Shown here piece after piece: positions 5,110 to 41,918 of a DNA stretch of 64,000 nt. Location: the NCBI GenBank assembly GCA_020725865.1, contig DYEC01000001.1, positions 124,001 through 188,000 on the forward strand, in the 5' to 3' direction. Position numbers and translations under genes: made by a program. This DNA comes from Anaerolinea sp. GTDB lineage: Bacteria > Chloroflexota > Anaerolineae > Anaerolineales > Anaerolineaceae. Every line of letters starts with the position of its first letter. Position 1 is the stretch's first letter. Below the pieces are notes generated by a model. It had not been told where the DNA came from, ran no database searches, and saw only the letters and a list, made by a program, of their open reading frames with translations.

Positions 5110-5146
5110 GAAATTGTTAGCGTAACCTGCTGACAGGAGCGTAGTG

Positions 5147-8100
5147 ATGATCAGAGCTTCAGTCTGGCATGTCAAGAAAGCACTGATGTTTTTGCTCATG
5201 GTTTTTATTCTGTTCAGCCTTACATGTCGCATTGCGCCCACGCTGGAAACAACACCAGAGGTGATGCCGGTAGCCACCATTGTGACAGAGCCTTCGGCGC
5301 AGGCACAACCTGCTGTGCCGTTGCCGCCATCGGTGGTAGAGACGCTCCCGGTGGATGGCGGCGAAATTAATAGTGTCGAAGGTATCAGATTTTATTTTAA
5401 CCAGCCGATGAAAACCGATACTGTGCAAGCAGCTCTGACCATTGAGCCACATCTGTCAGGCATTTTTGAATGGCTAGACAATAATCGCACACTGCACTTT
5501 CAGCCGAGTGCCCCTCTTCTACCTGCTATGTCGGTCAGGATTACATTGAAGACCAGTGCGCAGGCTGAGAACAATCTTCAATTGACAGGTGAGCAAACAT
5601 TTCATTTTCGAACCCCTGAAAGCCTACACATTGTTGAGCGAATCCCTGAGCCGGGCAGTGAAGGTCAGAATCCATCCAACGCAATCTCGGTTGCGTTCAA
5701 TCAACCTATAGTGCCTTTGGGCGGTGATCCATCCGCTTCACCCCCTGCCTTTTCCTTGTTACCTGAGGTTTCTGGAAAAGGCGAATGGTTAAACTCCAAC
5801 ACATATGTTTTCTATCCCGAACCTGCATTATCCGGCGGTACAGAGTACACCGTGACCATCAATTCGGCTCTGCTGAGTGTTTCGGGAATGTCGTTTGTGG
5901 AAGATGCAGAGGATGAGCTGAGCTGGGTATTTACTACTGCCCAGCCCGAGATCATTGCCTGCGAACCATCGGGTGGATGGCAACGGATGGCAATAGATAC
6001 CCCCTTTGTTATTGATTTCAACCAGCCGATGGATACTGCCAGTGTAGAACAGAATTTGACCTTGCTTGGACCCGGAGGCGTAAGAGTTGAGGGCACTTTT
6101 CAATGGGAGAATAATGCCAGTAGAGTAATCTTCCAGCCTGACCGTCTATTGCAGCGCGATACAACTTATACGTTAACGGTGCCCAAAGAGACACTCAGTC
6201 TTGGTGGTTCGCCGCTGAGCAAAGATTTCCGTAGAGAATTTCTTACCGTGGGACCCTTAAAGTTGGTTAAGACAATTCCAGCCTCGGGCAGGCCACTCAA
6301 AAGCGGATATAACAGTTTTGCGCTTGAGTTCAACGTCCCGCTTGGAGAGCAAAGCCTGGAGAGCTTAATTGAGATTCAACCGGAGATTACTGATCTAACA
6401 GTTTCTCTCAGCAATGACCGAAAGATGGTATATGTGAGCGGTTTTTATGAACCGAACCTAGTCTATACCATTACACTATCGGCTGATTTGCAGGATCGCT
6501 GGGGACGTCCTTTTGGAGAAGCACAAAGAGCAATTTTACGCGTTTTACCAGCCGAGCCATCTTTGACTATTCCAATGTTGCAGTTTGGTCCGCCAGCGCT
6601 CTTTATCTTGCCAGATGACCCTTATGTCACCGCTCAAGCTACCAACGTGCAGGCTGTTCAGGTGTCTTCGGCGTCGATCTCATTTGATACTTTCACCGCT
6701 CTGATCAAACAATATATTGAGAGAAAGACTCTCAGCATCAACATGGTGCCTACCCAGGAAACCTGGATGCACGCCCTCCAACTTGAACCGAACCGAAATA
6801 CGACGGTTGAGATTCCTCTTTCAAGCGAAAGGACAACACTGCCAACCGGATTATATTATTTTGAGTTTGATGTTCCTGAGCTAAACGCCAACCGTTATCT
6901 TAATGGCCCGGTTATGGGTGTCGTGAGCCGAATTAATCTGACCGTAAAACGTAATGGCAACGAGATGTATATCTGGGCAACCAATCTGGAAAACTTGCAG
7001 CCAGTGTCTGACACGAGTCTCACGGTTTACGATGATCAGAATGTCCCTGTGGCGACTGTAAAAACCGATCAAAACGGTCTGGCATGGATCTCGCTGCCAG
7101 AAAGCGCAAGCTGGCGAGTGATGTACTATGTGTTGATGGGAGAGCCCGGCGATTTGGACTTTGCGCTGGGATTGACTTCCTGGACGGCGGGCTTGAACGG
7201 GCGGGATTTTGGCTTGCCTACAAACTTGAGGTCCCAAACCAGTCAGCTCTTTACATATCTTTACTCAGATCGTCCCATTTACCGCCCGGGGCAAACGGTG
7301 CATGTGCGCGCAATTTTGCGGCGGGCAGAGAACGGACGATACTTTCCAAGTCCTATCGACCAGGTGACACTGCAACTCCTTGGTGATTACGCACCAGGGA
7401 CCGACGAGCGTCCTTTGCTGGCTACATTGTCGCTACCAGTTTCCAGTTATGGCACTGCAAGCGGCTCATTTACCTTGCCAGAAAATGCTCCGCCCGGTGT
7501 CTATACTTTGCAGACGTCTCATGAACCAACTACCAGCCTGACATTCCAGGTGGCTGAATACCGTAAACCAGAAATAGAACTGCTGGTACACTTTGATTCG
7601 TCTGAGAAACAGAAAGGACAGGACATTCTAGCAACCGTTCAAGCAAGTTACTACTTTGGGGCGCCGGCCAGTAATTTGCCGGTTCACTGGACGCTATACG
7701 CCGAAAGAGATTATTTTCATCTGCCAAACAATTATCAAAGCGGGACAATCGCTGCATTTTGGGATAATTCTCTGGACTATTATTTGTCGCCAGGTATGTT
7801 TCTAACAGAGGGAGATGCAAAAACTGATACGGGCGGCAACCTGTCATTGTCTTTTTCGGCAGATACGCTTAAGAGGCTGAATCAGATTGAGGGGCGTCAA
7901 AGGTTAATATTGGAGGTGACGGCTCAGGATCAAAGCGAATACCCGGTGAGCAACCGTACCAGTCTGATCATTCATCCGGCAGATTTTTATATTGGTGTTC
8001 GTCCTGATCACTGGAATGGTCAGGTTGGGCAGGAAATCGGGTATGTGATCCAGACTGTAGATTGGGCTAAGAAGCCATCGCCAATGCATGCACTGCGGGC

Positions 8101-11080: not shown

Positions 11081-11086
11081 GGTGCG

Positions 11087-11614
11087 TTAGCCTTGCGACC
11101 GTTGCAGCTCATTGAGCTCCTGCTCTAGAAGCTCGATTTTCTTAATCAACAATTGAATTTCTTCGAAGCTGACCTCTTCTTCTTCGCCTTGTGAATTTTG
11201 GGTCAAAGAGGGATCGAGAACCAGCGTTTCCAGCCGTTGGCGTTCTTCAGATGATAGTATTCCCCTGTTGGTCAGCAAATCCAGACGTCTGCGTATTTCG
11301 CTCTCGATATATCCTTGGGGGTCTAAAAAGGTGTGAATGGCTTCGCGTAGTCCGCCAAGTGTGCTGTCACCAGCGCGGATCAGACGAGAAAGGATTACTT
11401 GGGGCAACAATCCGCCAATTTTCTTTTCCTGTTCAAAGATCACTTGTGCGAGGGTAACAGCAGTGAGATCTGTACCGGTATCGTGGTCAATGACACGTAC
11501 GTCTTCACCAAGACGAATCATTTCGGCAATGTCGTTCAAGGTGACATATTGGCTTGTTTCGCTATTATAAAGTTTTCGGTTGGAATAACGCTTAATTAAA
11601 GGCATAGCAGACAT
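11087..11614 (-). CDS. phaR: PhaR-type polyhydroxyalkanoate synthesis regulator
   Basis: The N-terminus MPLIKRYSNRKLYNSETSQY is the PHA-accumulation regulator DNA-binding domain. In other bacteria it represses granule-associated phasin genes and binds polymer. The rest, about 110 residues, is predicted helical and Glu-rich, ending in a leucine-rich stretch LLIKKIELLEQELNELQ that looks like a coiled coil for oligomerisation. The length is 175 residues from ATG 11614; a TTG nine bases further upstream is also in frame. The gene converges on the macroglobulin gene with only six bases between stop codons. No PHA synthase or phasin gene is visible in the window, so it may regulate something else here. 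Confidence 0.8.
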   Translation of the reverse strand: MSAMPLIKRYSNRKLYNSETSQYVTLNDIAEMIRLGEDVRVIDHDTGTDLTAVTLAQVIFEQEKKIGGLLPQVILSRLIRAGDSTLGGLREAIHTFLDPQGYIESEIRRRLDLLTNRGILSSEERQRLETLVLDPSLTQNSQGEEEEVSFEEIQLLIKKIELLEQELNELQRSQG

Positions 11615-11747
11615 CCCGTTCAAGTGATTTGATATTCATATTTTACTTTACATTGGATATCCTGGAATGCGCGCCATGGTGGAATGAATCCCAAGGGTGT
11701 TTTGCATTAAGCTCATTATCTTAAGGGCAAATTGGTTCAAAAACTGA

Positions 11748-11776
11748 TTGACTTTTGAGCTGGAAATCCTTATAAT
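11748..11776 (+). promoter_or_regulatory. Sigma-A-type promoter of the GntR-regulated carbohydrate locus
   Basis: TTGACT (11748-11753) and TATAAT (11771-11776) are separated by 17 bases. The predicted start falls inside the palindrome at 11785-11802. Confidence 0.8.
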
Positions 11777-11784
11777 GATTTGCA

Positions 11785-11802
11785 GTAATGTTATAACATT
11801 AC
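11785..11802 (+). promoter_or_regulatory. Operator: perfect 18-bp palindrome over the transcription start
   Basis: GTAATGTTATAACATTAC is its own reverse complement and begins eight bases after the -10 box. Its core GTTATAAC fits the GT-N-TA-N-AC pattern known for HutC-subfamily GntR regulators, which is the subfamily of the gene encoded 22 bases downstream. Autorepression is the likely use. Confidence 0.7.
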
Positions 11803-11824
11803 AACAAATTTTCTAAAGGTTACT

Positions 11825-12553
11825 ATGTACCATCTGGATCGACGTTCTTTTATCCCCCTGTATCACCAGTTGAAAGAGAAACTCATTGAAGAAATTGAGA
11901 GCGGCACAATTGGCGTGGGTCAACCGTTGCCAACCGAGATGGAATTGATTGGGCGCTATGCGGTTAGCCGCACGACAGTGCGTCAGGCGATGCAGGAGCT
12001 GGAGCATGACGGTTATATCACGCGTACTCCTGGCAAAGGTACTTTTGTGATTCGTACCAAGCTCAGCCGCGGGCTGACCCGTCTGACCAGTTTCACAGAG
12101 GATATGCTGGCGCGCGGCATGGAGGTCACCTCTTCAATTCTTGAATTCAAACAAACCAAAGCCTCTGCAATTTGTGACAGGTTGGGTATTCCTCGCGATA
12201 CACCGTTGTTGTACGTATATCGTTTACGCCACGCAAATGGCATCCCGGTTGCCATCAACGCCTCCTACATCAATACATTGCTGAATGTTTCAATCACTAA
12301 GGAAGAGCTTGAACTGGTTGGGTCGCTGTATGCTTTATATGACCGCAAAGGGATTCCTCCCCTCGAGTCAGATAAAACGATTCAGGCGGTCGCTGCCAGT
12401 GAGGAGTGGAGTCGCTTATTACACCTTTCTGTCGGTTCGCCGTTGCTGTTGGTCGAAGGTGTTGTTTACACCTATAATCACCAACCGCTTGAGTATCACC
12501 AGGTGATCAGTGGAGGTGACCGTTATAAATATACCCTTCATCTCCAGCGGTGA
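11825..12553 (+). CDS. GntR family transcriptional regulator, HutC/UTRA subfamily
   Basis: This is a DNA-binding repressor of 242 residues. The N-terminal winged helix (residues about 8-75) has YHQLKEKLIEEIESG, LPTEMELIGRYAVSRTTVRQ and the wing TPGKGTFV. The C-terminal UTRA domain (about 95-240) binds a small-molecule effector, usually a sugar phosphate or similar metabolite, and contains TPLLYVYRLRHANGIPVAI. The start is supported by AAAGGT upstream. It is the first gene after the promoter and the 18-bp palindrome, and it lies directly before a sugar-type transporter and catabolic genes. It therefore most likely controls itself and those genes. The effector is unknown. Confidence 0.92.
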   Translation: MYHLDRRSFIPLYHQLKEKLIEEIESGTIGVGQPLPTEMELIGRYAVSRTTVRQAMQELEHDGYITRTPGKGTFVIRTKLSRGLTRLTSFTEDMLARGMEVTSSILEFKQTKASAICDRLGIPRDTPLLYVYRLRHANGIPVAINASYINTLLNVSITKEELELVGSLYALYDRKGIPPLESDKTIQAVAASEEWSRLLHLSVGSPLLLVEGVVYTYNHQPLEYHQVISGGDRYKYTLHLQR

Positions 12554-12590
12554 GATTAGGTCGTTTGTAAATCTCTTGGTCTTTTTTTTT
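12552..12590 (+). terminator. Weak terminator or attenuator after the GntR gene
   Basis: GAGATT (12552-12557) pairs with AATCTC (12570-12575), and a run of nine to ten T follows from 12582 after a short gap. The six-base stem is weak, so partial read-through to the transporter genes is plausible. Confidence 0.35.
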
Positions 12591-12657
12591 GATTTGTCAA
12601 GGAGGTGATAGCTATAAGCGAATTGTTAAGAAGTTTCAAGTCTGTCTATTTGGGGCT

Positions 12658-12701
12658 GTTCAGGAGGGAGTAAGAGAAGTCTCTGAGAAGGTCTCCTGAA
12701 C
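12658..12701 (+). promoter_or_regulatory. Inverted repeat in the leader of the sugar-binding protein gene
   Basis: GTTCAGGAG (12658-12666) and CTCCTGAAC (12693-12701) form a 9-bp perfect stem enclosing a smaller AGAG/CTCT hairpin. No U tract follows. It lies 68 bases before the next start codon. It could be a leader structure or a protein site; the role is unknown. The rest of 12591-12768 shows only an AAGGAGGTGATA sequence with no convincing gene. Confidence 0.4.
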
Positions 12702-12768
12702 GCGAACAACCCGGCAACAAAACCCGGATTGTAGAAATTGGATTATTTTAGAAGAAAAGGAGAAAACC

Positions 12769-14151
12769 ATGCATACCAAAATCTTCCGCACGATTTCAAT
12801 GTTAATCTTACTTATGGTGATGTTTGTGAGCCTGTTGGGATGTGCACCAGCAGCAACAGAGGCACCCAAGCCTGCCGAACCCACAAAACCCGCCGAGCCT
12901 ACAAAAGCGCCTGAAAAACCGGCAGAGCCGACCAAGGCAGCTGAACAGCCCGCCGCTAAGCCTTTTGAGGGGGTGGAGTTAACCCTGGCGTCTATGACAG
13001 ATCAGTACGTTACCGCTTTTCGTTACTTGATTCCTATATTCAAGCAAGAGACCGGCATTGACATCACGCTGGATGAGCTGGGCTACGTGGACCTGTACCA
13101 GAAATTGACAGCGGATTTTGTTGGTAAGACCGCACAGTATGACCTGATGACGGTTGATATTGTTTGGTCAGGTGAGTACGCTAAGAACCAGTATACACTG
13201 CCGCTGGACGACTTCATGGCGCGCGATAAAGATCAATTGCAACTGGATGACATTATGCCGGTTTCGTGGACGCTCGGTGAGTGGGAGGGTAAGCACTGGG
13301 CTTATCCGTTGGCGGGCTATGCAAATGTACTAAACTATCGAAAGGATGTTCTGGAGGAGGCAGGAATTAAACCCCCCGCCACACAGGAAGAGTTGTTGGA
13401 AGCGGCTAAGAAGCTGACCAAACCGGATGGAAGCATGTATGGCATTGCGTTGCTTGGCGCAAAGGGTCCGGCAGTTGCACAGGACTATATGGCTTGGGTG
13501 CAGCAGCATGGCGGCTCGATTCTGGACAAAGATGGTAAGGTTGCTATCAACACACCTCAGAATGTAGAAATCCTTAAATTCTTCGGCGAACTGTTTAAAT
13601 ATGCACCTCCAGGAGCAACAGACTACTGGTGGGATCAGCGCGAGACCGCTTTCCGCGATGGACAGGTGGCTATGATGGAGGGTTGGAGTATCGCCCGCGC
13701 TGGCTATGAAAACCCCGAAATTTCGAAGATTGTTGGCAAGGTGGATATTACCGTTGCTCCGGTCTCTAAAGGTATGGAACCCAAATATGGCTTTGGTGGT
13801 TGGGGCATTGGCATCAATGCTGCTTCTGATCCCAAGAAACAGGAAGCTGCTTGGGAATTCATCAAATGGCTGACTTCCCCCGAAATCCAGAAGGAATGGA
13901 TTCGCCACGACGGTGCACCTATTCGCCGCAGTACATTGGAAGACCCGGAATTGAACAAAGAATACCCCTGGTTCCCGGTCTTGCTGAAGTCTTTTGAGAA
14001 GGGTGATGGAGACTATCGCCCGCGCATTCCGGAGTATAGCATCATTCAGGATGCCCTTGGCACCTACGTGAACGCCTATCTGGTAGGGCAGGAGACTGCT
14101 GAAAGCGCGCTGGAGAAGGCACAGGCACAAGTCGAAGCGAATATGAAGTAA
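12769..14151 (+). CDS. Carbohydrate ABC transporter substrate-binding lipoprotein (family 1, CUT1 type)
   Basis: This is the extracytoplasmic sugar receptor of the locus, 460 residues. The signal peptide ends with lipobox LLGC (Cys25) and is followed by a long repetitive PAEPTK spacer (to about residue 65), similar to the one in the peptide-binding protein at 1229. The mature part has the family 1 fold: FKQETGIDITLDEL, QYDLMTVDIVWSGEY, then WAYPLAGYANVLNYRKDVL and a C-terminal WEFIKWLTSPEIQKEW. SD AAGGAGA precedes the ATG. A hairpin follows the gene and then come two permeases, so the binding protein is probably produced in excess. The substrate cannot be read from the sequence; the neighbouring kinase and aldolase suggest a sugar or polyol. 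Confidence 0.93.
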   Translation: MHTKIFRTISMLILLMVMFVSLLGCAPAATEAPKPAEPTKPAEPTKAPEKPAEPTKAAEQPAAKPFEGVELTLASMTDQYVTAFRYLIPIFKQETGIDITLDELGYVDLYQKLTADFVGKTAQYDLMTVDIVWSGEYAKNQYTLPLDDFMARDKDQLQLDDIMPVSWTLGEWEGKHWAYPLAGYANVLNYRKDVLEEAGIKPPATQEELLEAAKKLTKPDGSMYGIALLGAKGPAVAQDYMAWVQQHGGSILDKDGKVAINTPQNVEILKFFGELFKYAPPGATDYWWDQRETAFRDGQVAMMEGWSIARAGYENPEISKIVGKVDITVAPVSKGMEPKYGFGGWGIGINAASDPKKQEAAWEFIKWLTSPEIQKEWIRHDGAPIRRSTLEDPELNKEYPWFPVLLKSFEKGDGDYRPRIPEYSIIQDALGTYVNAYLVGQETAESALEKAQAQVEANMK

Positions 14152-14168
14152 AATTTATACAGATTTGG

Positions 14169-14201
14169 AAGGGATGCTTGCAAACTTTGCGGGCATCCCT
14201 T
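14169..14201 (+). promoter_or_regulatory. Intercistronic hairpin between the sugar-binding protein and first permease
   Basis: AAGGGATGC (14169-14177) and GCATCCCTT (14193-14201) form a perfect 9-bp stem without a U tract. It has the same position and form as the hairpin after the peptide-binding protein gene at 2958. Confidence 0.6.
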
Positions 14202-14243
14202 CATCCGCAATTGGGTCTTCTGCTCACCAGTTGGAGGTTCAAT

Positions 14244-33260: not shown

Positions 33261-33436
33261 TCGGTAATGATACTCTGGGATAGTTTCTCCTATAAGGAGA
33301 ATTTACCCTAACTTTTTGTGATTTCAGGAAGGATAACCTGATATTATGTGATAAGTTTCACATGACAAAGATAATACTTTGTTGTATAAGCTATAGTGGT
33401 GTGCTTGTTTCCAACCTTATATGGAGGAGGCAGTTC

Positions 33437-33928
33437 ATGGCATGGTTTATCCTGATCATGGCGGGTATGTTGATTTGTGCTGCCATGGCAGTGGTGGCAA
33501 AGCGGTTGCTGGTTTCAGCTATCTGGTTGGCAATCGCCAGTGCTTTACTTGCTTTGTTGATCTATCTGCTGGGAGCACCAGAGCTGGCTGTGATTGAGTT
33601 AAGTGTTGGCGCAGGTCTGGTTACGGTGCTTTTTGTGTTTGCAATCAGCATTGCCGGTGAAGAAGGACACATTCACCAATCCCTGCTGCCCAAATGGTTG
33701 GCAGGGATTGTTATTGCGGTTTCTGTGGGGTTAATAGGCTGGTTGTGTTTGCCCGATCTGGGTTTTGAGATGCCGCAGTTGGTACCAACCCGGTTATCCA
33801 CCGTCTTGTGGGAATTGCGTGGCGCAGATGTCATTTTGCAAGTTATCCTGATCTTTGCCGGTGTGCTGGGAGTGCTTGGACTTCTTTCGGGTGAACAATC
33901 AACGATTTCAAAGGAGCCGGACGCATGA
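33437..33928 (+). CDS. Hydrogenase membrane subunit, MbhD/NuoJ-like
   Basis: This is the first gene of the hydrogenase operon, 163 residues with about five helices. I chose ATG 33437 with GGAGG upstream; the extra frame to 33362 is not membrane-like. VSAIWLAIASALLALLIYLLG and PELAVIELSVGAGLVTVLFV match the DUF4040/MbhD part of Mrp-type modules and the NuoJ region of complex I. Such subunits line the ion path between antiporter-like subunits. It overlaps the next gene by four bases. Confidence 0.8.
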   Translation: MAWFILIMAGMLICAAMAVVAKRLLVSAIWLAIASALLALLIYLLGAPELAVIELSVGAGLVTVLFVFAISIAGEEGHIHQSLLPKWLAGIVIAVSVGLIGWLCLPDLGFEMPQLVPTRLSTVLWELRGADVILQVILIFAGVLGVLGLLSGEQSTISKEPDA

Positions 33929-34236
33929 CGCTTTCGTTAGTGAGTCTTACCTTTATTGCAGTTATTGGGTTGCTGGCAATCGGTTTATATGCGTTGCTGG
34001 TAGTCCACAACTTGATCAAGGTGGTCGTTGCTTTGCAAATTCTGGCAAAGGGCGCTATTTTGGGGTTTATCCTGGCTGGGCGGATCAATGGCCAGATCGG
34101 CCTTGCGGAAAGTCTGGCATTGACGGTCATCATTGTGGATACGATTGTTGCAGTGATCGGGCTTTCGTTGGCTGTCCAAATTCGCCATCACATGGGCACG
34201 CTGGACGTCAGTGCGCTTACCCGGTTGAGGAGGTGA
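33925..34236 (+). CDS. NuoK/MrpC-like membrane subunit
   Basis: This is a small hydrophobic subunit of 103 residues with three helices, the standard NuoK/MrpC size. ALLVVHNLIKVVVALQILAKGAIL is the first conserved region. IGLAESLALTVIIVDTIVAVIGLSLA contains the acidic residues expected in NuoK/MrpC (ESLALT and IIVD). It overlaps the previous gene by four bases and precedes the antiporter-like subunit by three. Confidence 0.88.
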   Translation: MTLSLVSLTFIAVIGLLAIGLYALLVVHNLIKVVVALQILAKGAILGFILAGRINGQIGLAESLALTVIIVDTIVAVIGLSLAVQIRHHMGTLDVSALTRLRR

Positions 34237-34239
34237 ATA

Positions 34240-35988
34240 ATGGCGAATGTTTTGATCCTCCTCATCCTTGGTTTACCTTGGTTGGGTGCCTTGCTGGTCT
34301 GGTGGGTGGGTGATCAGCGCTCCAAAGCACAGATCGTATTGGCAATTCTTTTCTCGGTACTTGCAGGTGTTGCGAGTCTGGTATTGATTCCGTTTGCTAG
34401 TAACTCGGTTGCCTTGAACATCCCTCTTGGCGGCGCGTTTGGTGATTTTACATTTGTTGCTGATGGGCTTGGGATTTATCTGGCAGCAATTGCGACTATT
34501 ATCGGGAGTCTGGCAGTGATCTTCTCTGTGGATTACATGCGGGGGGAGGCCCAACTTGGGCGTTATTATGCACTGGTGCTTTTCTTCATCGGCGGCATGG
34601 CAGGGTTAGTACTGACCAGCAATCTGCTGTTGATGTTTGTATTCTGGGAGATCACAGCTCTGTGCTCATATGCTCTGATTTCATTTCACAGCGACGATCC
34701 CAAAGCGGTTTATGGTGGTATCAAAGCTCTGATTGTGACTCAATTCGGTGGGATCGGGTTGCTTGCAGGGGCTTTGCTAATTTACGCCTATTCTGGCAGT
34801 TACGATCTTCAGGCTTTTATTGCCAACCCGCAAATTCTTCCCCCGGGTGTGCTGGCGGTTACAGCTTTTGGGTTTCTGGTTGCAGCAGCAGCCAAGTCAG
34901 CACAGTTTCCTTTTCAGACCTGGTTGCCAGATGCAATGGAAGCTCCTACACCAATCAGCGCTTTGATCCATGCGGCGACGATGGTCAATGCAGGTGTTTA
35001 TCTGCTGGCGCGTTTTTATCCTGCTTTTGAGCGTGTTCCCGGCTGGCGTGAAGCAGTGGTTGTTGTTGGGGTAGTGACCGCCCTGATGGCGGCGCTGATG
35101 GCTTTGGTCAGCAACGACCTGAAGCGCGTACTGGCATACTCTACCGTTAGCCAGTTAGGGTATATGGTGTATGCGATCGGTACAGGAGGCGTTTTTGCCA
35201 GCCAGTTCCATCTTATGAGTCATTCTGTGTTCAAGGCGTTGCTCTTTCTGGCGGCTGGTGCGGTGATCCACAGTATCGGTACCCGCGATATACGCCAGAT
35301 GGGTGGATTGGGTGCACAAATGCCTCTTGTACGCACTGTATTTGCGATTGGGGCGCTTTCCCTGGCGGGCATTCCCATTCTAAATGGCTTTTGGAGTAAA
35401 GAGCTGATTCTGGAATCCGGCTCAGCTCACGGTCCGCTTTGGGCCTGGGTTATGATGGTCATTTGCGCCGGGTTGACTGCTTTATATACTTTCCGCTGTT
35501 TCTGGCTTGTGTTTGCCGGTGAGCCGCGTAGCCATTTACACGGTCATGATGCCGGTACAGCAATGAAAGTGGCGCTTATTCCACTGGCAGTCGGGGCTTT
35601 CCTGACCGAATTACTGGCTGGACCGTTTGCGTACATCCTGGAACACACAGTGCCATTGATGGAGATTGAAGTTGGAACGACTCTGTCGATTTTGGAAGAA
35701 GTGGTTACTACACCGTTGACGCTAGTTGCGCTAGCTGTAGTTGCACTGGGATTGGCTGTCTGGTGGTGGCGAGAAAAACTTTCTGGTTTATCCGAGGCTC
35801 TAGCAGGGATAGGGCGGGTAGCTGCGGACAGTTTTGGTTTTGAGGCGATTAACCGTGGCATAGTGAATTCCACAAATTGGCTGTCAGAAAAACTGCGCCG
35901 TACACAAACAGGGCTGCTCAACTGGAATATTTTTGGCATCACCGCTGGTTTTCTGCTGGTCTTGATCATCCTGGTCATTGGAGGGTAA
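34240..35988 (+). CDS. Antiporter-like proton-translocating subunit (NuoL/MrpD type) 1
   Basis: This is a large membrane subunit of 582 residues with about 14-16 helices. The ion-pumping features are the Glu in FVFWEITALCSYALI, the Lys in AAKSAQFPFQTWLPDAM and PTPISALIHAATMVNAGVYL. A further lysine is in SNDLKRVLAYSTVSQLGYM and a His/Lys region in HLMSHSVFKALLFLAAG. The C-terminal 100 residues are less conserved and may form the distal helices. It belongs to the ion-pumping module of the hydrogenase. Confidence 0.93.
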   Translation: MANVLILLILGLPWLGALLVWWVGDQRSKAQIVLAILFSVLAGVASLVLIPFASNSVALNIPLGGAFGDFTFVADGLGIYLAAIATIIGSLAVIFSVDYMRGEAQLGRYYALVLFFIGGMAGLVLTSNLLLMFVFWEITALCSYALISFHSDDPKAVYGGIKALIVTQFGGIGLLAGALLIYAYSGSYDLQAFIANPQILPPGVLAVTAFGFLVAAAAKSAQFPFQTWLPDAMEAPTPISALIHAATMVNAGVYLLARFYPAFERVPGWREAVVVVGVVTALMAALMALVSNDLKRVLAYSTVSQLGYMVYAIGTGGVFASQFHLMSHSVFKALLFLAAGAVIHSIGTRDIRQMGGLGAQMPLVRTVFAIGALSLAGIPILNGFWSKELILESGSAHGPLWAWVMMVICAGLTALYTFRCFWLVFAGEPRSHLHGHDAGTAMKVALIPLAVGAFLTELLAGPFAYILEHTVPLMEIEVGTTLSILEEVVTTPLTLVALAVVALGLAVWWWREKLSGLSEALAGIGRVAADSFGFEAINRGIVNSTNWLSEKLRRTQTGLLNWNIFGITAGFLLVLIILVIGG

Positions 35989-35992
35989 CAAC

Positions 35993-37510
35993 ATGGAAGC
36001 AACAACTGGTGTGATCTGGTTGATCGTAACGCCGTTCGCGACTGCCTTTATCGTGTATCTGATTGGGCGTATTTTGGCACGACGGTCTGGCGCTAAACTA
36101 GCTAATCGAATATCAGCCTGGCTAGCAGCTCTGGGATTACTGATTTCCGCCTATCCGCTTTATCTAGAAGATCAGATTGTTTTATCCAATAAGGTGGTCT
36201 TGTTTAAGCAAGGGGGTATTATTTTCTACCTGGATGGTATCAGCGTTTTGCTGGCGGTAGTTGTTTTGTTGCTGGGGTTACTGGTGGTCATTTTCTCAGC
36301 TCGTTACATGAGTTCTGAGGTGGGCGCAGAGAAGTATTATGCCCTACTGCTGGCAATGATTGGTGGTATTCTGGGGTTAGGTTGTTCAGCAGACCTATTC
36401 ACCTTGTGGGTTTGGTTTGAGGTTATGGCAATTACCTCGTATATGCTGGTTGCTTTTTATCGGAATCAGCCTGCTTCTCTGGAAGCTGGTTTTAAGTATC
36501 TTGTTCAAAGCGCAGCCGGTTCAGTATTTGTGCTGATCGGTATATTTATCGTCTTTGCCTGGAATGGCACACTCGATATGATGCGCATCCGTTATTTTCT
36601 CCAACCGCCCTTGCCACCCATTCTGCTGGTAGCAGGAGGGTGTTTTCTGATTGGATTTGGTGTCAAAGCCGCGCTTGTGCCATTACATACCTGGTTACCT
36701 GATGCACACTCGCAGGCACCCAGTGGCATCAGCGCCATGCTTTCGGGGATTGTCATTGAGGCGGGGTTGATTGCTTTGTTACGGGTAACCTCTATAATGG
36801 GGGCTGCCAGCGAGCTTTGGGGGAATCTAATGCTTGGGGTAGGGGCTCTCAATATGCTATTGGGTAATTTGATGGCATTGCGCCAGACGCAAGTTAAGCG
36901 TCTTCTGGCTTATTCTAGCATTGGTCATATGGGATACATGATGTTCGGTCTGGGGGTGATTTATCGTTTTGGTATTCTTAATGGAGCGGGTGGGGCATTC
37001 TTTCATCTCTTCAATCATGCCATGATGAAAGGACTGGCTTTTCTTGCCGCTGGGGTGCTTTTATATGTTCTGTATATTGCCAAAGGTGATCATGGCACAT
37101 TGACCTTGGATGACTTGAATGGAGCTTCAAAACGCTATCCATTAACTGTGTTTACATTAAGCGTGGCGTTGCTAGGATTAGGCGGCTTGCCCCCTCTGGC
37201 GGGTTTCATGTCAAAATGGCAGATTTTTGTCGCTGGTTTTCAAACCCAAGATACGGTGGCAATGCTGCTGGTTGTCTTTGCCGCATTGAATAGCGTACTT
37301 TCACTTGGATACTATGCTCCATTAGTTAACCGCATGTATCGTCTACAACCTTCGGTTGCGGTGGAAAATGGGGCTGCAGTGCCCAAGACGATGGTTGTTC
37401 CGCTGGTTGTGTTAACCTTGCTAATCGTTGTATTGGGCTTCTATCCTTCGTTGTTGAACTGGTTGACTGAGCCAGCCGCTGGTATTTTGTTCTTATTCAT
37501 CAGAGGATAG
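35993..37510 (+). CDS. Antiporter-like proton-translocating subunit (NuoM/NuoN/MrpD type) 2
   Basis: This second antiporter-like subunit has 505 residues and about 14 helices. The ATG at 35993 follows GGAGGG, five bases after the previous stop. Key elements are LWVWFEVMAITSYMLVAFY (Glu), GFGVKAALVPLHTWLPDAHS (Lys), APSGISAMLSGIVIEAGLIA, TQVKRLLAYSSIGHMGYMMF and FHLFNHAMMKGLAFLAAG. Two such subunits in one operon suggest more than one ion path, as in complex I and Hyf-type hydrogenases. Confidence 0.93.
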   Translation: MEATTGVIWLIVTPFATAFIVYLIGRILARRSGAKLANRISAWLAALGLLISAYPLYLEDQIVLSNKVVLFKQGGIIFYLDGISVLLAVVVLLLGLLVVIFSARYMSSEVGAEKYYALLLAMIGGILGLGCSADLFTLWVWFEVMAITSYMLVAFYRNQPASLEAGFKYLVQSAAGSVFVLIGIFIVFAWNGTLDMMRIRYFLQPPLPPILLVAGGCFLIGFGVKAALVPLHTWLPDAHSQAPSGISAMLSGIVIEAGLIALLRVTSIMGAASELWGNLMLGVGALNMLLGNLMALRQTQVKRLLAYSSIGHMGYMMFGLGVIYRFGILNGAGGAFFHLFNHAMMKGLAFLAAGVLLYVLYIAKGDHGTLTLDDLNGASKRYPLTVFTLSVALLGLGGLPPLAGFMSKWQIFVAGFQTQDTVAMLLVVFAALNSVLSLGYYAPLVNRMYRLQPSVAVENGAAVPKTMVVPLVVLTLLIVVLGFYPSLLNWLTEPAAGILFLFIRG

Positions 37511-37530
37511 AGAGGAGAATTAAACTAACC

Positions 37531-37842
37531 ATGGAAGTAATCCTGACTCCTCCTGTAGCGTTTTTACTGTATATTCCGTTGGTATTGGTGTTTCTTGGCT
37601 TTGGGAAATTACTGGCAGGTCCGGAAAAGCCATCAGACACCAAATTGAGTGTTTATGGCAGTGGTGAGGCGCCACCAACCGGAGCTGCTGCGCCCGGTTA
37701 TCGGCCATTTTTCTTGATTGCCTTTTTCTTTGCCATTCTGCATTTGGGAGTGCTGGTTCTTGGGACAGCTGAATTGACAGTGCTGAGTGCCGTTTTTTTG
37801 ATTGGTTTAATGGTTGCGTTGGTGGCTTTAATTTTGGGTTAG
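37531..37842 (+). CDS. NuoA-like membrane subunit
   Basis: This protein of 103 residues has three helices and resembles NuoA (subunit 3). After the first helix, the loop KPSDTKLSVYGSGEAPPTGA matches the K-x-x-x-Y-x-x-GE pattern, and FFLIAFFFAILHLGVLVL is the second helix. The loop is shorter than in full complex I and lacks the typical Cys. Such subunits sit at the junction of the membrane and hydrogenase modules. Confidence 0.75.
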   Translation: MEVILTPPVAFLLYIPLVLVFLGFGKLLAGPEKPSDTKLSVYGSGEAPPTGAAAPGYRPFFLIAFFFAILHLGVLVLGTAELTVLSAVFLIGLMVALVALILG

Positions 37843-37857
37843 GAGAGGTGTTTTGAA

Positions 37858-38370
37858 ATGACAAATCTAAAGCTGGATTCTAACTGGCAAAGAATACTGG
37901 ACAAGATTCGCACCTGGGCACGAGTGAATTCGCCTTGGGCTATCCATTTTAACAGTGGCTCATGTAATGGTTGTGACATTGAAATTCTAGCAACGCTGAC
38001 CCCGCGCTATGATGTGGAACGTTTTGGCATCAAGCTGCAGGGTAGTCCGCGTCATGCAGATGTGTTGATTTGCACTGGTCCGGTGACCCTGCAAGCGCGT
38101 GATCGCTTGATCCGCATTTATGAACAAATGCCAGAGCCGAAGTTTGTGATTGCGGTTGGTTCGTGTGGACTTTCGGGTGGCGTGTTTCACGGCTGTTACA
38201 ATGTGGTAGGCAGTATTGATGAGGTTCTACCTGTAAATGTATATATTCCAGGCTGTCCACCCCGACCTGAGGCAATCATCTATGGTGTGGTGCAGCTACT
38301 TAATAGCCTGAAATCAGGCGTGTCAAAAGTGGGAACTGTTGCCGAGCTGGTGGAAAAACAGGAGGCTTAA
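37858..38370 (+). CDS. Group 4 [NiFe] hydrogenase small subunit (NuoB-like)
   Basis: This is the electron-transfer subunit of 170 residues carrying one [4Fe-4S] cluster. The ligands are Cys36 and Cys39 in GSCNGCDIE, Cys103 in AVGSCGLSGG, and Cys133 in PGCPPRPE. The C-x-x-C spacing is that of group 4 hydrogenases (MbhJ, HycG, EchC); respiratory complex I has adjacent cysteines. SD GGAGAGG precedes the ATG. It hands electrons to the nickel site in the large subunit at 38907. Confidence 0.93.
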   Translation: MTNLKLDSNWQRILDKIRTWARVNSPWAIHFNSGSCNGCDIEILATLTPRYDVERFGIKLQGSPRHADVLICTGPVTLQARDRLIRIYEQMPEPKFVIAVGSCGLSGGVFHGCYNVVGSIDEVLPVNVYIPGCPPRPEAIIYGVVQLLNSLKSGVSKVGTVAELVEKQEA

Positions 38371-38372
38371 TA

Positions 38373-38897
38373 ATGAGTAGCCAGACTGCGTTGCAAACTG
38401 CTGAAGAACTGCTAAAACCTTATGCGATGGAAATGATTAAGCAAGAAGAAGATTTTCGTCTGGATGTCCTGTTAAGTCCTGATCAACTCCATGAGGCTGT
38501 TAAAGCGCTGCATGATGCCCGATGGGGATATCTTTCTGCAATTGCTGGCGTGGATCATCCAGCACCAGTAATTGGTGAAGACGCCAACGCTTCTGGCACA
38601 GTTCAAGAGAAAGGGAAAGAAAGTCAAGTCGAGGTTTTATATGTATTTTGTCAGGGCGCAGCAGTACTGGTGTTGCGGTTAAAAGTTCCATATACTCATG
38701 CTGAATTACCAACAGTATGCGACCTGATTCCCTCTGCGACATTGTATGAGCGGGAGTTAATGGAAATGTTTGGTGTCGAAATTCATGGAACGCCGGTGAA
38801 GGATCGTTTGCTTCTGCCAGATGAATGGCCGGAAGGTGTTTATCCTTTGAGAAAAGCAACAATTATCGGTACTACTCGTTCAGGTTCAGAAGAGTGA
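38373..38897 (+). CDS. Hydrogenase 30-kDa-like subunit (NuoC/HycE-N type)
   Basis: This peripheral scaffolding subunit has 174 residues. WGYLSAIAGVDHP near residue 50 and the C-terminal DLIPSATLYERELMEMFGVEIHG match the NuoC family, as does LLPDEWPEGVYPLRK. The gene is separate from the large subunit, unlike HycE of E. coli where the two are fused. It starts two bases after the small-subunit stop. Confidence 0.92.
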   Translation: MSSQTALQTAEELLKPYAMEMIKQEEDFRLDVLLSPDQLHEAVKALHDARWGYLSAIAGVDHPAPVIGEDANASGTVQEKGKESQVEVLYVFCQGAAVLVLRLKVPYTHAELPTVCDLIPSATLYERELMEMFGVEIHGTPVKDRLLLPDEWPEGVYPLRKATIIGTTRSGSEE

Positions 38898-38906
38898 GGT
38901 GTAGAG

Positions 38907-40088
38907 ATGGAAACCCGAAAATCCAGTGAGAAGTTTGTAGTTCCAATTGGACCACAACACCCGGCATTAAAAGAACCCGGCCATTTTGAGTTCACGGTGG
39001 ATGGCGAAATTGTAACCGGGGCTTCTGTACGTTTGGGGTATGTGCATCGAGGAATTGAAAAAGGTGCTGAAGACCGTACCTGGACACAGAACATCTACCT
39101 GTTAGAGCGCATCTGTGGTATTTGCTCGCATGTCCATGCCACTGCTTATGTTTTAGGTGTTGAAAAGTTGGCGGGTGTATCTGCGCCGCCGCGCGCCCAG
39201 GCAATCCGGACAGTTACCGCTGAGCTCGAGCGTATTCACAGCCACTTGCTCTGGCTGGGTGTCGCAGCACATGAGGGCGGTTTTGATACTTTATTTATGT
39301 ACTCCTGGCGCGATCGGGAAACCGTCATGGATTTGTTGGAACTGATCAGCGGCAACCGCGTTCATTACTCTACCAATGTACTGGGCGGAGTTAAGTATGA
39401 TCTGGATACGGAAAAGATGGATGCTATTCGGCGCGGGCTGGATTTTCTGGAAGAGCGGACACATCATTACATGAAGGTTGTCACTACCGATGAAACTTTT
39501 CTAGCGCGTACACGCGGTGTTGGACTGATGACGCGTGAGCAGGCAGAAGCGCTTGGGGCAGTGGGTCCCACGGCGCGAGCCTCCAGTGTTCGGCGGGATA
39601 TTCGCATAGATGCACCCTATGCTGCCTACCCTGACTTTCCGGTTAAGTTAATTACCGATGATGGTGGGGACTTGCTGGCGCGTTTTGTTGTGCGCTTGAA
39701 AGAGCTTTTTGAGAGCTATCGAGTGATCCGGGCAATTCTGGACCAAATGCCGGAAGGGGAACTGACAACACGAGTGCCTCGCCGTATACCTGCGGGAGAG
39801 GTGATCAGCCGGGTCGAAGCGCCGCGGGGTGAATTGTTTTATTACATCAAGAGCAACGGCGGCGAAAAACCTGAACGGATTAAAGTCCGTACTCCTTCTT
39901 TATGTAATTGGGGAACAGTTGTTAGTGTGGCAGTTGGGCATAAACTAGCCGATATGCCTATGTTGCTGGCAGGGATAGATCCATGTTTTTCGTGCAATGA
40001 TCGCATGGTGCGCATCAATCGTGGCCAAGGTGCTCAGTTCTGGTCTTGGGAAAACTTACGCCAATATGGGATTGAATACTACCGATGA
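38907..40088 (+). CDS. Group 4 [NiFe] hydrogenase large (catalytic) subunit
   Basis: This catalytic subunit has 393 residues and is related to NuoD but keeps the NiFe site. Both metal motifs are intact: RICGICSHVH (Cys70, Cys73) and DPCFSC (Cys360, Cys363). The N-terminal IGPQHPALKEPGHFEFTVDG and LGYVHRGIEKGAE are typical of the family. After NDR the protein continues for 27 residues. In E. coli HycE, the protease HycI cleaves after the Arg in the same position, so this tail is probably removed during nickel insertion by the product of 41421-41918. It overlaps the next gene by four bases. It should evolve or take up H2 at the cytoplasmic face. Confidence 0.95.
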   Translation: METRKSSEKFVVPIGPQHPALKEPGHFEFTVDGEIVTGASVRLGYVHRGIEKGAEDRTWTQNIYLLERICGICSHVHATAYVLGVEKLAGVSAPPRAQAIRTVTAELERIHSHLLWLGVAAHEGGFDTLFMYSWRDRETVMDLLELISGNRVHYSTNVLGGVKYDLDTEKMDAIRRGLDFLEERTHHYMKVVTTDETFLARTRGVGLMTREQAEALGAVGPTARASSVRRDIRIDAPYAAYPDFPVKLITDDGGDLLARFVVRLKELFESYRVIRAILDQMPEGELTTRVPRRIPAGEVISRVEAPRGELFYYIKSNGGEKPERIKVRTPSLCNWGTVVSVAVGHKLADMPMLLAGIDPCFSCNDRMVRINRGQGAQFWSWENLRQYGIEYYR

Positions 40089-41014
40089 ACACGACACTTC
40101 TCTCTATTCTTGCACTTCTCATATTTCCTGGTGGATTGTTTCTCTTAGGGTATGGACTGGCTTATGAATATGTAGATCGTAAGCTGGTGGCGCGTTTTCA
40201 GAACCGGGTAGGACCGCGCTGGTTTCAACCGCTGGCAGATGTGGTCAAATTGCTTGCCAAGGAAGAAATTGTTCCGCATGGTGTGCAACGAGGTTTGTTC
40301 ATCTTCCTGCCGGTGGCGGCGTTAGCTGCTGCCCTGACAGCGGCATTGTACGTGCCGATGGCTGGTCAGGTACCTTCCTACTCGTTCAATGGAGACCTGA
40401 TCGTCACCATATATCTCTTGAGCTTGTTGACAATCTGCATGGGGCTGGCAGGGGCAAATACAATTGATCGCTTTTCGGTGGTTGGAGCCACGCGGGTTTT
40501 GACACAGCTTTTCTCATATGAAGCGCCTTTCCTTCTGGCTTTGTTGTCACCGGCAATTATGGCAAAAAGTTGGCAAATCAGTGAGATCAACATCTATACC
40601 CATAATAACCTGTGGTTTGTCTTGACCCAGCCGATCGGTTTTCTCGTGGCATTGGTTGGGTTGATGGGCAAACTTGAGTTACCACCATTTGATGCGCCCG
40701 AAGCTGAAACCGAAATTGTTTCCGGTGCGTTAACCGAGTACAGCGGGCGAGGTCTGGCGTTATTCCGCCTAGGCAAGGACGTCGAGCTGGTAATTGGGCT
40801 GACTTTGGTAGCAGCTTTTTATCTGGGTGGGATTGCCAATCCACTTGAGTTTGTGCTGAAGACCCTCGCATTGTTGGTAGTTGTTGCTGGATTACAATCC
40901 CTGTTTGCGCGGCTGCGCATTGATCAGACAGTTGGTCTTTGGTGGCGGCTTGGTGCAATACTGGGGCTGGCGCAAATACTCTTTGTAATTTTCTGGCGCC
41001 TTGTATTGAGGTGA
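40085..41014 (+). CDS. NuoH/HycD/MbhM-like membrane subunit
   Basis: This is the membrane anchor joining the hydrogenase arm to the ion pump, 309 residues with eight helices. YVDRKLVARFQNRVGPRWFQ is the cytoplasmic loop conserved in NuoH, and KLLAKEEIVPHG follows. LELPPFDAPEAETEIVSGALTEYSG is the acidic E-channel region. The gene starts with ATGA overlap to the large subunit. Confidence 0.95.
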   Translation: MNTTLLSILALLIFPGGLFLLGYGLAYEYVDRKLVARFQNRVGPRWFQPLADVVKLLAKEEIVPHGVQRGLFIFLPVAALAAALTAALYVPMAGQVPSYSFNGDLIVTIYLLSLLTICMGLAGANTIDRFSVVGATRVLTQLFSYEAPFLLALLSPAIMAKSWQISEINIYTHNNLWFVLTQPIGFLVALVGLMGKLELPPFDAPEAETEIVSGALTEYSGRGLALFRLGKDVELVIGLTLVAAFYLGGIANPLEFVLKTLALLVVVAGLQSLFARLRIDQTVGLWWRLGAILGLAQILFVIFWRLVLR

Positions 41015-41017
41015 TCT

Positions 41018-41458
41018 ATGACAATTGGTGTGATGTTGCGTGATGTATTGAAGTCTTTGTTCAAGCGACCGGTGACAGAACTGTACCCATTTGAGCGTAA
41101 AACAGTTCCTTTGGAGCTGCGCGCTGAATTAACATGGGATCCAACCAAGTGTTCGGGTTGCCAGCTTTGCATTAAAGACTGTCCTGCCGGGGCGATTGAG
41201 CTGGTGGTTCTGGATAAAGTGAACAAGCGCTTTGTCATGCGTTATCATAGGGACCGCTGTGTATATTGTGCCCAATGCGTGCAAAGCTGTCGTTTCAACT
41301 GCCTGAATATGACTAATGAGCAGTGGGAACATGCGGCTTTGAGTAAAGAGCCTTTTGTTGTTCATTATGGCAGGGATGAGGATGTCCAATTTCTCCTGGA
41401 GAAGGCTGCTAAGGAAGGCGTTGAAGAATGCCCGGATCAGCCGACGGACCCTAACTAA
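41018..41458 (+). CDS. Ferredoxin-like subunit with two [4Fe-4S] sites (NuoI/MbhN type)
   Basis: This is a peripheral electron-entry subunit of 146 residues. Two cluster motifs are visible: CSGCQLCIKDCPAG near residue 45 and CVYCAQCVQSCRF near residue 80. The N-terminal LKSLFKRPVTELYPFE resembles NuoI. No NADH-oxidising (NuoEFG) or formate-oxidising gene is in the operon, so reduced ferredoxin is the likely donor. That is inference from group 4 enzymes. Its 3' end overlaps the protease gene. Confidence 0.93.
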   Translation: MTIGVMLRDVLKSLFKRPVTELYPFERKTVPLELRAELTWDPTKCSGCQLCIKDCPAGAIELVVLDKVNKRFVMRYHRDRCVYCAQCVQSCRFNCLNMTNEQWEHAALSKEPFVVHYGRDEDVQFLLEKAAKEGVEECPDQPTDPN

Positions 41459-41918
41459 CACAAAATCATCCTCTTTCCTGGCAATTCTTGGTCTTGGCAA
41501 TGAATTTAACGGTGATGATGCAGCAGGGGTGTGTGTCGCACGCGCCTTGCAAGAACGTGTTCCAGCATCCTCGCGAGTTCTAATCATTGATGCGGGGCTT
41601 GCGCCGGAGAACTTTACCGCCACTCTGCGCCGCTTTCACCCTGCGTTAGTAATCATGGTGGATGCTGTTGATATGGGAGAAATTCCTGGTTCTATTGCCT
41701 GCCTGCAGTGGTGGGAAGGAAAGGGCTGGAGCGGTTCGACACACACCCTGCCTCCAAACGTATTGGCGGAGTTTCTTATCCGAGAGTTGGGTTGCCGCAT
41801 ATTGTTGCTGGCTATTCAGGTCTCGCAAACAGCTTTTGATACGCCGCTTTCTGAACCGGTGAAAAAAGCTGTCGAGACAGTTGTGAGGGAGCTATCAGGT
41901 TGGATAAGTGAGCAATGA
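41421..41918 (+). CDS. HycI-type hydrogenase maturation endopeptidase
   Basis: This cytoplasmic nickel-dependent protease trims the C-terminal tail of the hydrogenase large subunit after nickel is inserted. ILGLGNEFNGDDAAGVCVARAL near residue 20 has the metal-binding Glu/Asp region, LVIMVDAVDMGEIPGS follows, and HTLPPNVLAEFL carries the His. I favour TTG 41421 (AAGGAAGG upstream, 165 residues); ATG 41382 is possible and would lengthen the overlap with the previous gene. It is the last gene of the hydrogenase operon and matches the predicted tail on the large subunit. The hyp maturation genes are not in the window. Confidence 0.9.
   Translation: MKNARISRRTLTNTKSSSFLAILGLGNEFNGDDAAGVCVARALQERVPASSRVLIIDAGLAPENFTATLRRFHPALVIMVDAVDMGEIPGSIACLQWWEGKGWSGSTHTLPPNVLAEFLIRELGCRILLLAIQVSQTAFDTPLSEPVKKAVETVVRELSGWISEQ

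Follow-up and report, generated by a model that had tools for sequence, protein, structure and literature searches.

A predicted complex-I-like [NiFe] hydrogenase of Anaerolineae with two antiporter subunits, no NuoM type and a shorter NuoL lateral helix

Introduction

Which enzyme is encoded by a gene cluster that combines a [NiFe] hydrogenase large subunit with a membrane arm of the complex I type, and how many antiporter modules belong to this arm? The question is raised by positions 33437-41918 (+ strand) of a 64,000-nucleotide stretch of DNA from Anaerolinea sp. (assembly GCA_020725865.1, contig DYEC01000001.1, positions 124,001 to 188,000), which is called the window throughout. Ten subunit genes and a HycI-type protease gene follow each other in the order J-K-L-N-A-B-C-D-H-I-P, where the subunit letters refer to the Nuo proteins of complex I, D is the large subunit, and L and N are the two antiporter-like subunits. 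The analyses described below point to a new form, i.e., a two-antiporter, NuoM-less, complex-I-like hydrogenase with a matching shorter lateral helix in its NuoL-type subunit. In the literature searched, no description was found of an enzyme of this kind, with two antiporters, no M and a correspondingly short lateral helix.

Results

Classification of the large subunit

The large subunit D contains the motifs CGICSHVH and DPCFSCNDR, which form an intact [NiFe] site, and the second motif is followed by a tail of 27 residues. Both agree with the definitions of the group 4 [NiFe] hydrogenase motifs, C[GS][ILV]C[AGNS]xxH for L1 and [DE][PL]Cx[AGST]Cx[DE][RL] for L2 (PMC7886697). Two further traits of group 4, membrane subunits resembling those of complex I and a set of maturation proteins, were likewise found. 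The best match of D in the PDB was Mbh of Pyrococcus (6cfw, 283 bits), followed by HycE (270 bits), and in a careful tree of 41 rows D was separated from NuoD of complex I by a branch with a support of 100/100. Judged by its sequence, the cluster encodes a [NiFe] hydrogenase of the group 4 type rather than a partial complex I. A first sequence-only reading of the window had claimed the same on account of the complete catalytic motifs, and both cysteine motifs and the NuoD branch bear this out. A partial complex I is ruled out by the intact NiFe cysteines, and the genome has separate complex I loci. A respiratory complex I was rejected because no NuoEFG (NADH) module was seen in or beside the cluster and the cysteines of D are present.

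A phylum sample was found to contain matches to D at an E-value of 1e-90 or better in 21 of 301 genomes; in a class sample 57 of 346 genomes had matches, of which 34 were at least 66% identical to D and 23 were 43-55% identical. In named genomes, at least 590 matching stretches were confirmed, and the best 80 of them were used. In a large-subunit tree of 103 rows, 35 rows formed one clade (support of 100 in the Shimodaira-Hasegawa-like approximate likelihood ratio test), and a sample of nine clade rows was again monophyletic in the careful tree (100/100), with complex I standing apart (100/100). All clade rows with a named phylum belong to the Chloroflexota, including the cultured members Longilinea (Longilinea arvoryzae) and Leptolinea (Leptolinea tardivitalis), and the clade is represented in 34 of the 346 genomes of the class sample. 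The cysteines of both motifs were kept in the clade rows examined, and one of them (L059) has a histidine in front of CGIC. Outside the clade, the relatives stem from Omnitrophota, Elusimicrobiota, Bacillota, Planctomycetota, Bathyarchaeota, and others. Putative complex-I-like hydrogenases with a NuoA-like subunit are spread over many bacterial phyla, beyond the Bathyarchaeia.

The cluster was compared with known group 4 systems. Mbh of group 4d did not fit, as MbhA, B, C, and F (Mrp) genes are missing from the cluster and a grouping with MbhL alone was rejected by the approximately unbiased (AU) test (p 0.0116). The formate hydrogenlyase of group 4a was set aside because no linked formate dehydrogenase or HycB-type module was seen in the cluster or its neighbours. 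Hfo is defined by the complete set A, B, C, D, H, I, J, K, L, M, N, of which the M type is missing from the cluster. It counts against a firm placement that D is loosely positioned in the tree: the best tree separates it from HycE/HyfG (4a), but a grouping with them was not rejected (AU p of 0.203). The large subunits of taxa with published 4g assignments (Omnitrophota, Endomicrobium, Bathyarchaeia) fall near D of the window, and an affiliation of D with HydDB group 4g is suggested by association with these taxa only.

Antiporter subunits

In a tree of antiporter-like subunits (84 rows), the first antiporter of the window grouped with NuoL (support 99) and the second with NuoN (99), and the middle antiporter of two relatives from Caldisericota (L109) and Elusimicrobia (L115) grouped with NuoM (97 and 96 for two enclosing branches). 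The residue at a defined position in transmembrane helix 12 (TM12) gave the same picture. In the compared rows it is a glutamate in NuoM and a lysine in NuoL and NuoN; lysine was found in both window antiporters, and glutamate in the middle antiporters of L109 and L115. No third antiporter was present on the cluster strand in any of the 29 named clade loci. The predicted antiporters of the clade are of the NuoL and the NuoN type, without the NuoM type, and many relatives carry three.

A tree of 19 NuoL-type subunits, from which the lateral helix had been left out, requires three or more changes in the presence of M. In the antiporter tree of 84 rows, the L subunits of L109 and L115 group with the window clade (99), while the D tree disagrees (AU p of 0.048 against this grouping). 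The sequence-only reading had described the cluster as intermediate between Mbh/Hyf-type enzymes and complex I. This holds for its composition; as a claim about an evolutionary intermediate it was dropped, because of the repeated changes of M and the conflict between the two trees about L109 and L115.

Length of the NuoL lateral helix

As a proxy for the lateral helix, the TM15-TM16 gap was used, i.e., the number of residues that separate the final two transmembrane helices of the NuoL-like subunit. It amounts to 54 in L of the window. With the rule w17, the gap was 51-64 residues in all 32 measured two-antiporter loci (33 rows) and at least 80 residues in 32 of 34 three-antiporter loci; the remaining two, L094 and L103, were misread at 33 and 30 residues and gave 87 and 88 under a second rule (w19). 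Under the latter, 30 of 32 two-antiporter rows stayed below 70 (L062 and L064 read 100), and all 32 measured of the 34 three-antiporter rows had gaps of at least 78. A third, stricter setting (w19, 1.9) was discarded because it misread a larger number of rows. Several rows had been dropped before the count: L035 (same genome as L101), L092 (contig edge), L042 (the counterexample discussed below), the six one-antiporter rows L041 and L043-L047, L048 (819 amino acids, aa), a second L094 row, L039 and L040 (three antiporters, no candidate of 560-740 aa), and two loci with a fused or split L frame (L112, L125). L075 was counted by hand as a two-antiporter locus, its others being on the opposite strand, and the gap of L037 was unmeasurable.

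In complex I, the lateral helix of NuoL extends over the other antiporters. That of the window L is about 30 residues shorter than in three-antiporter NuoL subunits, roughly the width of one antiporter. On the tree of 19 NuoL-type subunits, the presence of M and the helix length changed together in three of three independent contrasts. An AlphaFold2 model of the window L contains a lateral helix of 24 residues (531-554) with a predicted local distance difference test (pLDDT) score of about 65-74, and the best structural matches of the model were NuoL chains (Z 50.8, root mean square deviation 2.8, 528 aligned). In the model of L from L109 the helix comprises 53 residues (529-581). The missing M gene and the short helix are established at the sequence level, and the models agree.

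In other complexes, an extra pump has been connected with a 26-residue insertion in the lateral helix, and an insertion of similar length and place occurs in NuoL of the Nitrospira 2M complex I (PMC9040806). The genome of the window offers a comparison of its own. The complex I encoded on contig C9 is of the ordinary type, has one antiporter each of the types L, M, and N, and shows a NuoL gap of 93. A second locus on contig C13 (L162, G000:C13:18000-37500; 5126-14213) has the order A-H-J-K-L-M-M-N, with a weak A match of 14.5 bits, two M-type subunits according to the TM12 glutamate, and a NuoL of 741 aa, in which a gap of about 113 was derived manually from the helix segments. Contig C10 (L029, 7815-10825) encodes B, a fused C/D, and I, and no membrane subunit was matched in this stretch. 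Together, C13 and C10 have the layout of the Chloroflexi 2M complex I, in which nuoLMMN and nuoBCDI lie apart (PMC7117926). One and the same genome hence contains a ladder of NuoL gaps of 54 (hydrogenase), 93 (three antiporters), and about 113 (four antiporters), and the gap of the hydrogenase extends the relation of helix length to antiporter number downwards. In this respect the hydrogenase resembles the 2M complex I, where the helix also tracks the number of antiporters (PMC9040806, PMC7117926); there, however, a pump has been added to a quinone-linked complex I, while in the hydrogenase one is missing.

It is tempting to speculate that the lateral helix is a ruler that sets the number of antiporter modules, with the window hydrogenase as a natural two-pump member and NuoM as the module that was gained or lost. 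We regard this as a tentative idea with slightly less than even chances. Several observations weaken the relation of helix length to antiporter number. A sign test on three pairs cannot reach 0.05, the modelled helix of L109 mostly has a pLDDT below 50, and L042 has two antiporters and a gap of 80. Furthermore, loci with one antiporter have gaps of 54-69, and HycC of E. coli has a gap of 69, with HycC and HycD being the sole membrane subunits in the operon listing.

Organization of the gene cluster

The sequence-only reading had proposed an eleven-gene operon, and every gene was confirmed by profile matches, the subunits all exceeding the curated Pfam cut-offs. The number eleven includes ten structural subunits and the maturation protease. 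Neighbouring genes overlap or are separated by gaps of up to about 20 bases. The features are as follows:

33437..33928, +, J, MbhD/NuoJ-like membrane subunit, 163 aa; PF13244 (MbhD) 40.4 bits, PF00499 (Oxidored_q3) 36 bits
33925..34236, +, K, NuoK/MrpC-like subunit, 103 aa; PF00420 (Oxidored_q2) 44.7 bits
34240..35988, +, L, NuoL-type antiporter subunit, 582 aa; TIGR01974 428.6 versus a cut-off of 407.5, antiporter tree, AlphaFold2 model
35978..37510, +, N, NuoN-type antiporter subunit, 510 aa; PF00361 (Proton_antipo_M) 227 bits, groups with NuoN, TM12 lysine
37531..37842, +, A, NuoA-like subunit, 103 aa; PF00507 (Oxidored_q4) 24.8 versus a cut-off of 23.3, His71
37858..38370, +, B, small subunit with one [4Fe-4S] site, 170 aa; PF01058 (Oxidored_q6) 117.3 bits
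38373..38897, +, C, 30-kDa NuoC-like subunit, 174 aa; PF00329 (Complex1_30kDa) 84 bits
38907..40088, +, D, [NiFe] large subunit, 393 aa; Complex1_49kDa and NiFeSe_Hases, both cysteine motifs
40085..41014, +, H, NuoH-like membrane subunit, 309 aa; PF00146 (NADHdh) 236.7 bits
41018..41458, +, I, NuoI-like subunit with two [4Fe-4S] sites, 146 aa; Fer4 matches, two CxxCxxCxxxC motifs
41355..41918, +, P, HycI-type [NiFe] maturation protease; PF01750 59.4 versus 23, TIGR00072 95 versus 47.45

Alternative starts exist for J (33437 or an in-frame ATG further upstream at 33362) and for N (TTG at 35978 or an in-frame ATG further downstream). The Proton_antipo_M domain was matched twice in the cluster, in L and in N. 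Besides the short lateral helix, L has a C-terminal transmembrane helix and the key residues E137, K219, and K387. The weakest subunit call is A, which nevertheless occupies the same position in the loci of the relatives; a PDB search with this protein as query yielded weak matches only. The ligands of B (SGSCNGC..GSC..PGCP) were read straight from the sequence; a motif for B matched 34 of 93 rows and was too strict to be used. Two CxxCxxCxxxC motifs were present in all 83 I subunits inspected. The open reading frame of P, for which the start is provisional, overlaps the 3' end of I; the score of P with TIGR00142 (108.8) is below the cut-off of 119.1. The flanking genes, named by inspecting their translations, encode a seryl-tRNA synthetase, a response regulator, a cation-efflux protein, a dehydrogenase, and a protein kinase. 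Inspection of the cluster and the neighbouring open frames at 28-48 kb did not reveal a formate, CO or NADH module, in agreement with the sequence-only reading.

The gene order of the window was kept in 23 of the 29 named clade loci, 18 of which have ten separate genes, while in the other five C is read through into D as one open frame. Because so many loci repeat the same genes in the same order, the arrangement goes beyond chance. L055, L059, L061, and L066 are incomplete towards the end of the contig or locus; no match for L was obtained in L058, and none for A in L067. Outside the clade, 29 of 51 named loci have three antiporters in the order L-L-L-J-K-A-B-C-D-H-I. L109 and L115 have the order J-K-L-M-N-A-B-C-D-H-I, which is the window order with M between L and N. 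A different complex-I-like hydrogenase with three antiporters is encoded by L039 and L040, which belong to the family of the window genome; its D is about 50% identical, has DLCxAC in place of DPCxxC, and lacks the C-terminal tail, and no protease match was found nearby.

NuoA-like subunit, C-terminal tail and protease

His71 of the NuoA-like subunit (37741-37743) stands where complex I has an aspartate in TM2. Across 86 rows this position was occupied by H in 77, by D in seven, and by E in two. The acid was retained in the archaeal and Armatimonadota rows shown and in both complex I rows.

None of the 14 loci with a D lacking the C-terminal tail had a protease match (two with less than 3 kb downstream), and a match was found in 61 of 82 loci with tails of at least 26 residues, counts that are limited by a single-sequence protease profile and by contig ends; L071, with a tail of seven, has a match too. 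In three loci of the window clade (L068, L069, and L070) D stops directly behind the second cysteine motif, and a nearby match to the protease is missing. In these loci, tail and protease seem to have been lost together (2562 bases are available downstream in L069).

Maturation genes and other complexes in the genome

The sequence-only reading had suggested a search for hyp genes, and hypA, B, F, C, D, and E were found together on contig C20 of the genome (3.12 Mb, 26 contigs). Contig C22 encodes a pyruvate:ferredoxin oxidoreductase (TIGR02176, 1857 bits versus a cut-off of 911) and a second set for a 2-oxoacid:ferredoxin oxidoreductase; TIGR02176 was used after a search with PF17147 had turned out to be unspecific, matching all 14 control genomes. 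No match to an [FeFe] hydrogenase was found in the genome of the window, nor in the Longilinea genome (L049).

A second [NiFe] hydrogenase is encoded on contig C6 (L032, 8007-12556), with a VhuA-like large subunit, a VhuG-like small subunit, a NuoG/HoxU-like protein, and its own protease. Genes for an MrpA-like (911 aa) and an MrpD-like (493 aa) protein, named by profile score and length, are located on contig C17 (L163, 3816-8450) and are unlinked to the hydrogenase.

Discussion

The cluster probably encodes a membrane-bound, energy-converting [NiFe] hydrogenase on the plan of complex I, which would couple ferredoxin-driven H2 evolution to the export of ions via N and L; for this enzyme we infer the electron donor, the ion, and the stoichiometry. 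The ferredoxin-to-H2 reaction is that of Mbh of Pyrococcus (group 4d). According to conserved ligands and homology, electrons from reduced ferredoxin would pass through the two [4Fe-4S] clusters of I and the cluster of B and would reduce protons to H2 at the NiFe centre of D. By analogy with complex I and Mbh, the reaction would drive ions first by way of H, A, J, and K and subsequently through N and L, and we infer an assembled membrane arm of the type L-N, not L-M-N. Ferredoxin as donor is consistent with the full pyruvate:ferredoxin oxidoreductase predicted from the genome.

A two-antiporter arm leads to the prediction that fewer ions are moved per H2 than in three-antiporter relatives, and more than in one-antiporter enzymes. 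The expectation of the sequence-only reading that two pumps could raise the ion yield is retained in comparison with one-antiporter enzymes; it does not extend to the many relatives with three, the clade being without NuoM. With ferredoxin at about -500 mV and H2 at about 10 Pa, about 0.2 V is left for two electrons; with a gradient of 150-180 mV, this would be enough to move about two ions. By this estimate from general values, about two ions per H2 would fit a two-pump arm.

In anaerobic Anaerolineae the enzyme likely serves to dispose of fermentation electrons as H2, and a reversal would be possible. H2 is a major product of L. arvoryzae (PMC7736352), and a table of the same publication has 'Mbh NiFe hydrogenase' among its row headings. 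Two facts weigh against assigning H2 formation to the cluster: Leptolinea (L052) has a match to an [FeFe] hydrogenase, and further [NiFe] hydrogenases are present in the genome of the window and in Longilinea, so that the source of the H2 need not be the cluster. The enzyme might also run mainly in reverse, with an ion gradient driving the reduction of ferredoxin by H2. Such a direction has been suggested for the nearest named precedent, the Hfo of Bathyarchaeia (PMC7886697), and the four-antiporter complex I locus of the genome could build the gradient. It nevertheless appears unlikely, because L. arvoryzae, a cultured relative, forms H2 by fermentation (PMC7736352) and pyruvate:ferredoxin oxidoreductase can provide the reduced ferredoxin.

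Ferredoxin-driven H2 evolution with a two-pump arm also has to be compared with known systems. The Hfo of Bathyarchaeia has already been described as a complex-I-like, 11-subunit, Fpo-like hydrogenase of subgroup 4g (PMC7886697). The window cluster shares with it a [NiFe] large subunit with intact L1 and L2, the complex-I-like core, and the lack of a donor module. In contrast to Hfo with its 11 subunits and Fpo gene order (PMC7886697), it comprises ten subunits without NuoM in the order J-K-L-N-A-B-C-D-H-I, and it differs by the linked protease, the bacterial host, and the histidine in the NuoA-like subunit, where the Bathyarchaeota loci L088 and L106 have kept the acid. In Omnitrophota and Cloacimonadota, group 4g hydrogenases have been called Mrp-linked, with ferredoxin as the presumed donor (PMC8542988). 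The D subunits of our Omnitrophota loci, which may be the genes of that publication, are 52-56% identical to D of the window; relatives of the Omnitrophota/Cloacimonadota type mostly have three antiporters, whereas the window has two. Unlike Mbh (for its make-up, see also PMC7886697), the cluster has a NuoA-like gene, two antiporters, and no MbhA, B, C, or F. It resembles Hyc/Hyf of E. coli (4a) in its HycI-type protease, but no formate dehydrogenase or HycB-like module was seen in the cluster and its neighbours, and J, K, and A are separate genes.

A third pump could be supplied from elsewhere, i.e., NuoM could be borrowed from the complex I of C9 or from C13, with its two M-type subunits, which would result in a three-pump enzyme. 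Ten PF00361 matches exist in the genome besides the two of the window, and this speaks in favour of borrowing in principle and against an arm with exactly two pumps. However, the second M of C13 is accounted for by the Chloroflexi 2M layout of C13 and C10 (PMC7117926), L of the hydrogenase has the short lateral helix, and a third antiporter is lacking from the cluster throughout the clade, so that borrowing appears very improbable. Least credible of all is a non-functional or regulatory remnant, which might be suspected from broken frames and missing genes in some clade drafts (L037; L058, L067), because all four cysteines are conserved together with the Fe-S ligands and the charged antiporter residues, the clade shares its gene order, and the genome contains hyp genes.

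The number of ions that are moved per antiporter-like subunit of complex I is still debated. A natural relative without exactly the middle module and with a shorter helix would allow a comparison of pump contributions that is independent of engineered deletions, and the two-pump form occurs in the cultured strains Longilinea arvoryzae and Leptolinea tardivitalis. If the lateral helix is indeed a ruler, the two-, three-, and four-antiporter ladder of a single genome would make it possible to relate the ions per electron pair to the number of modules.

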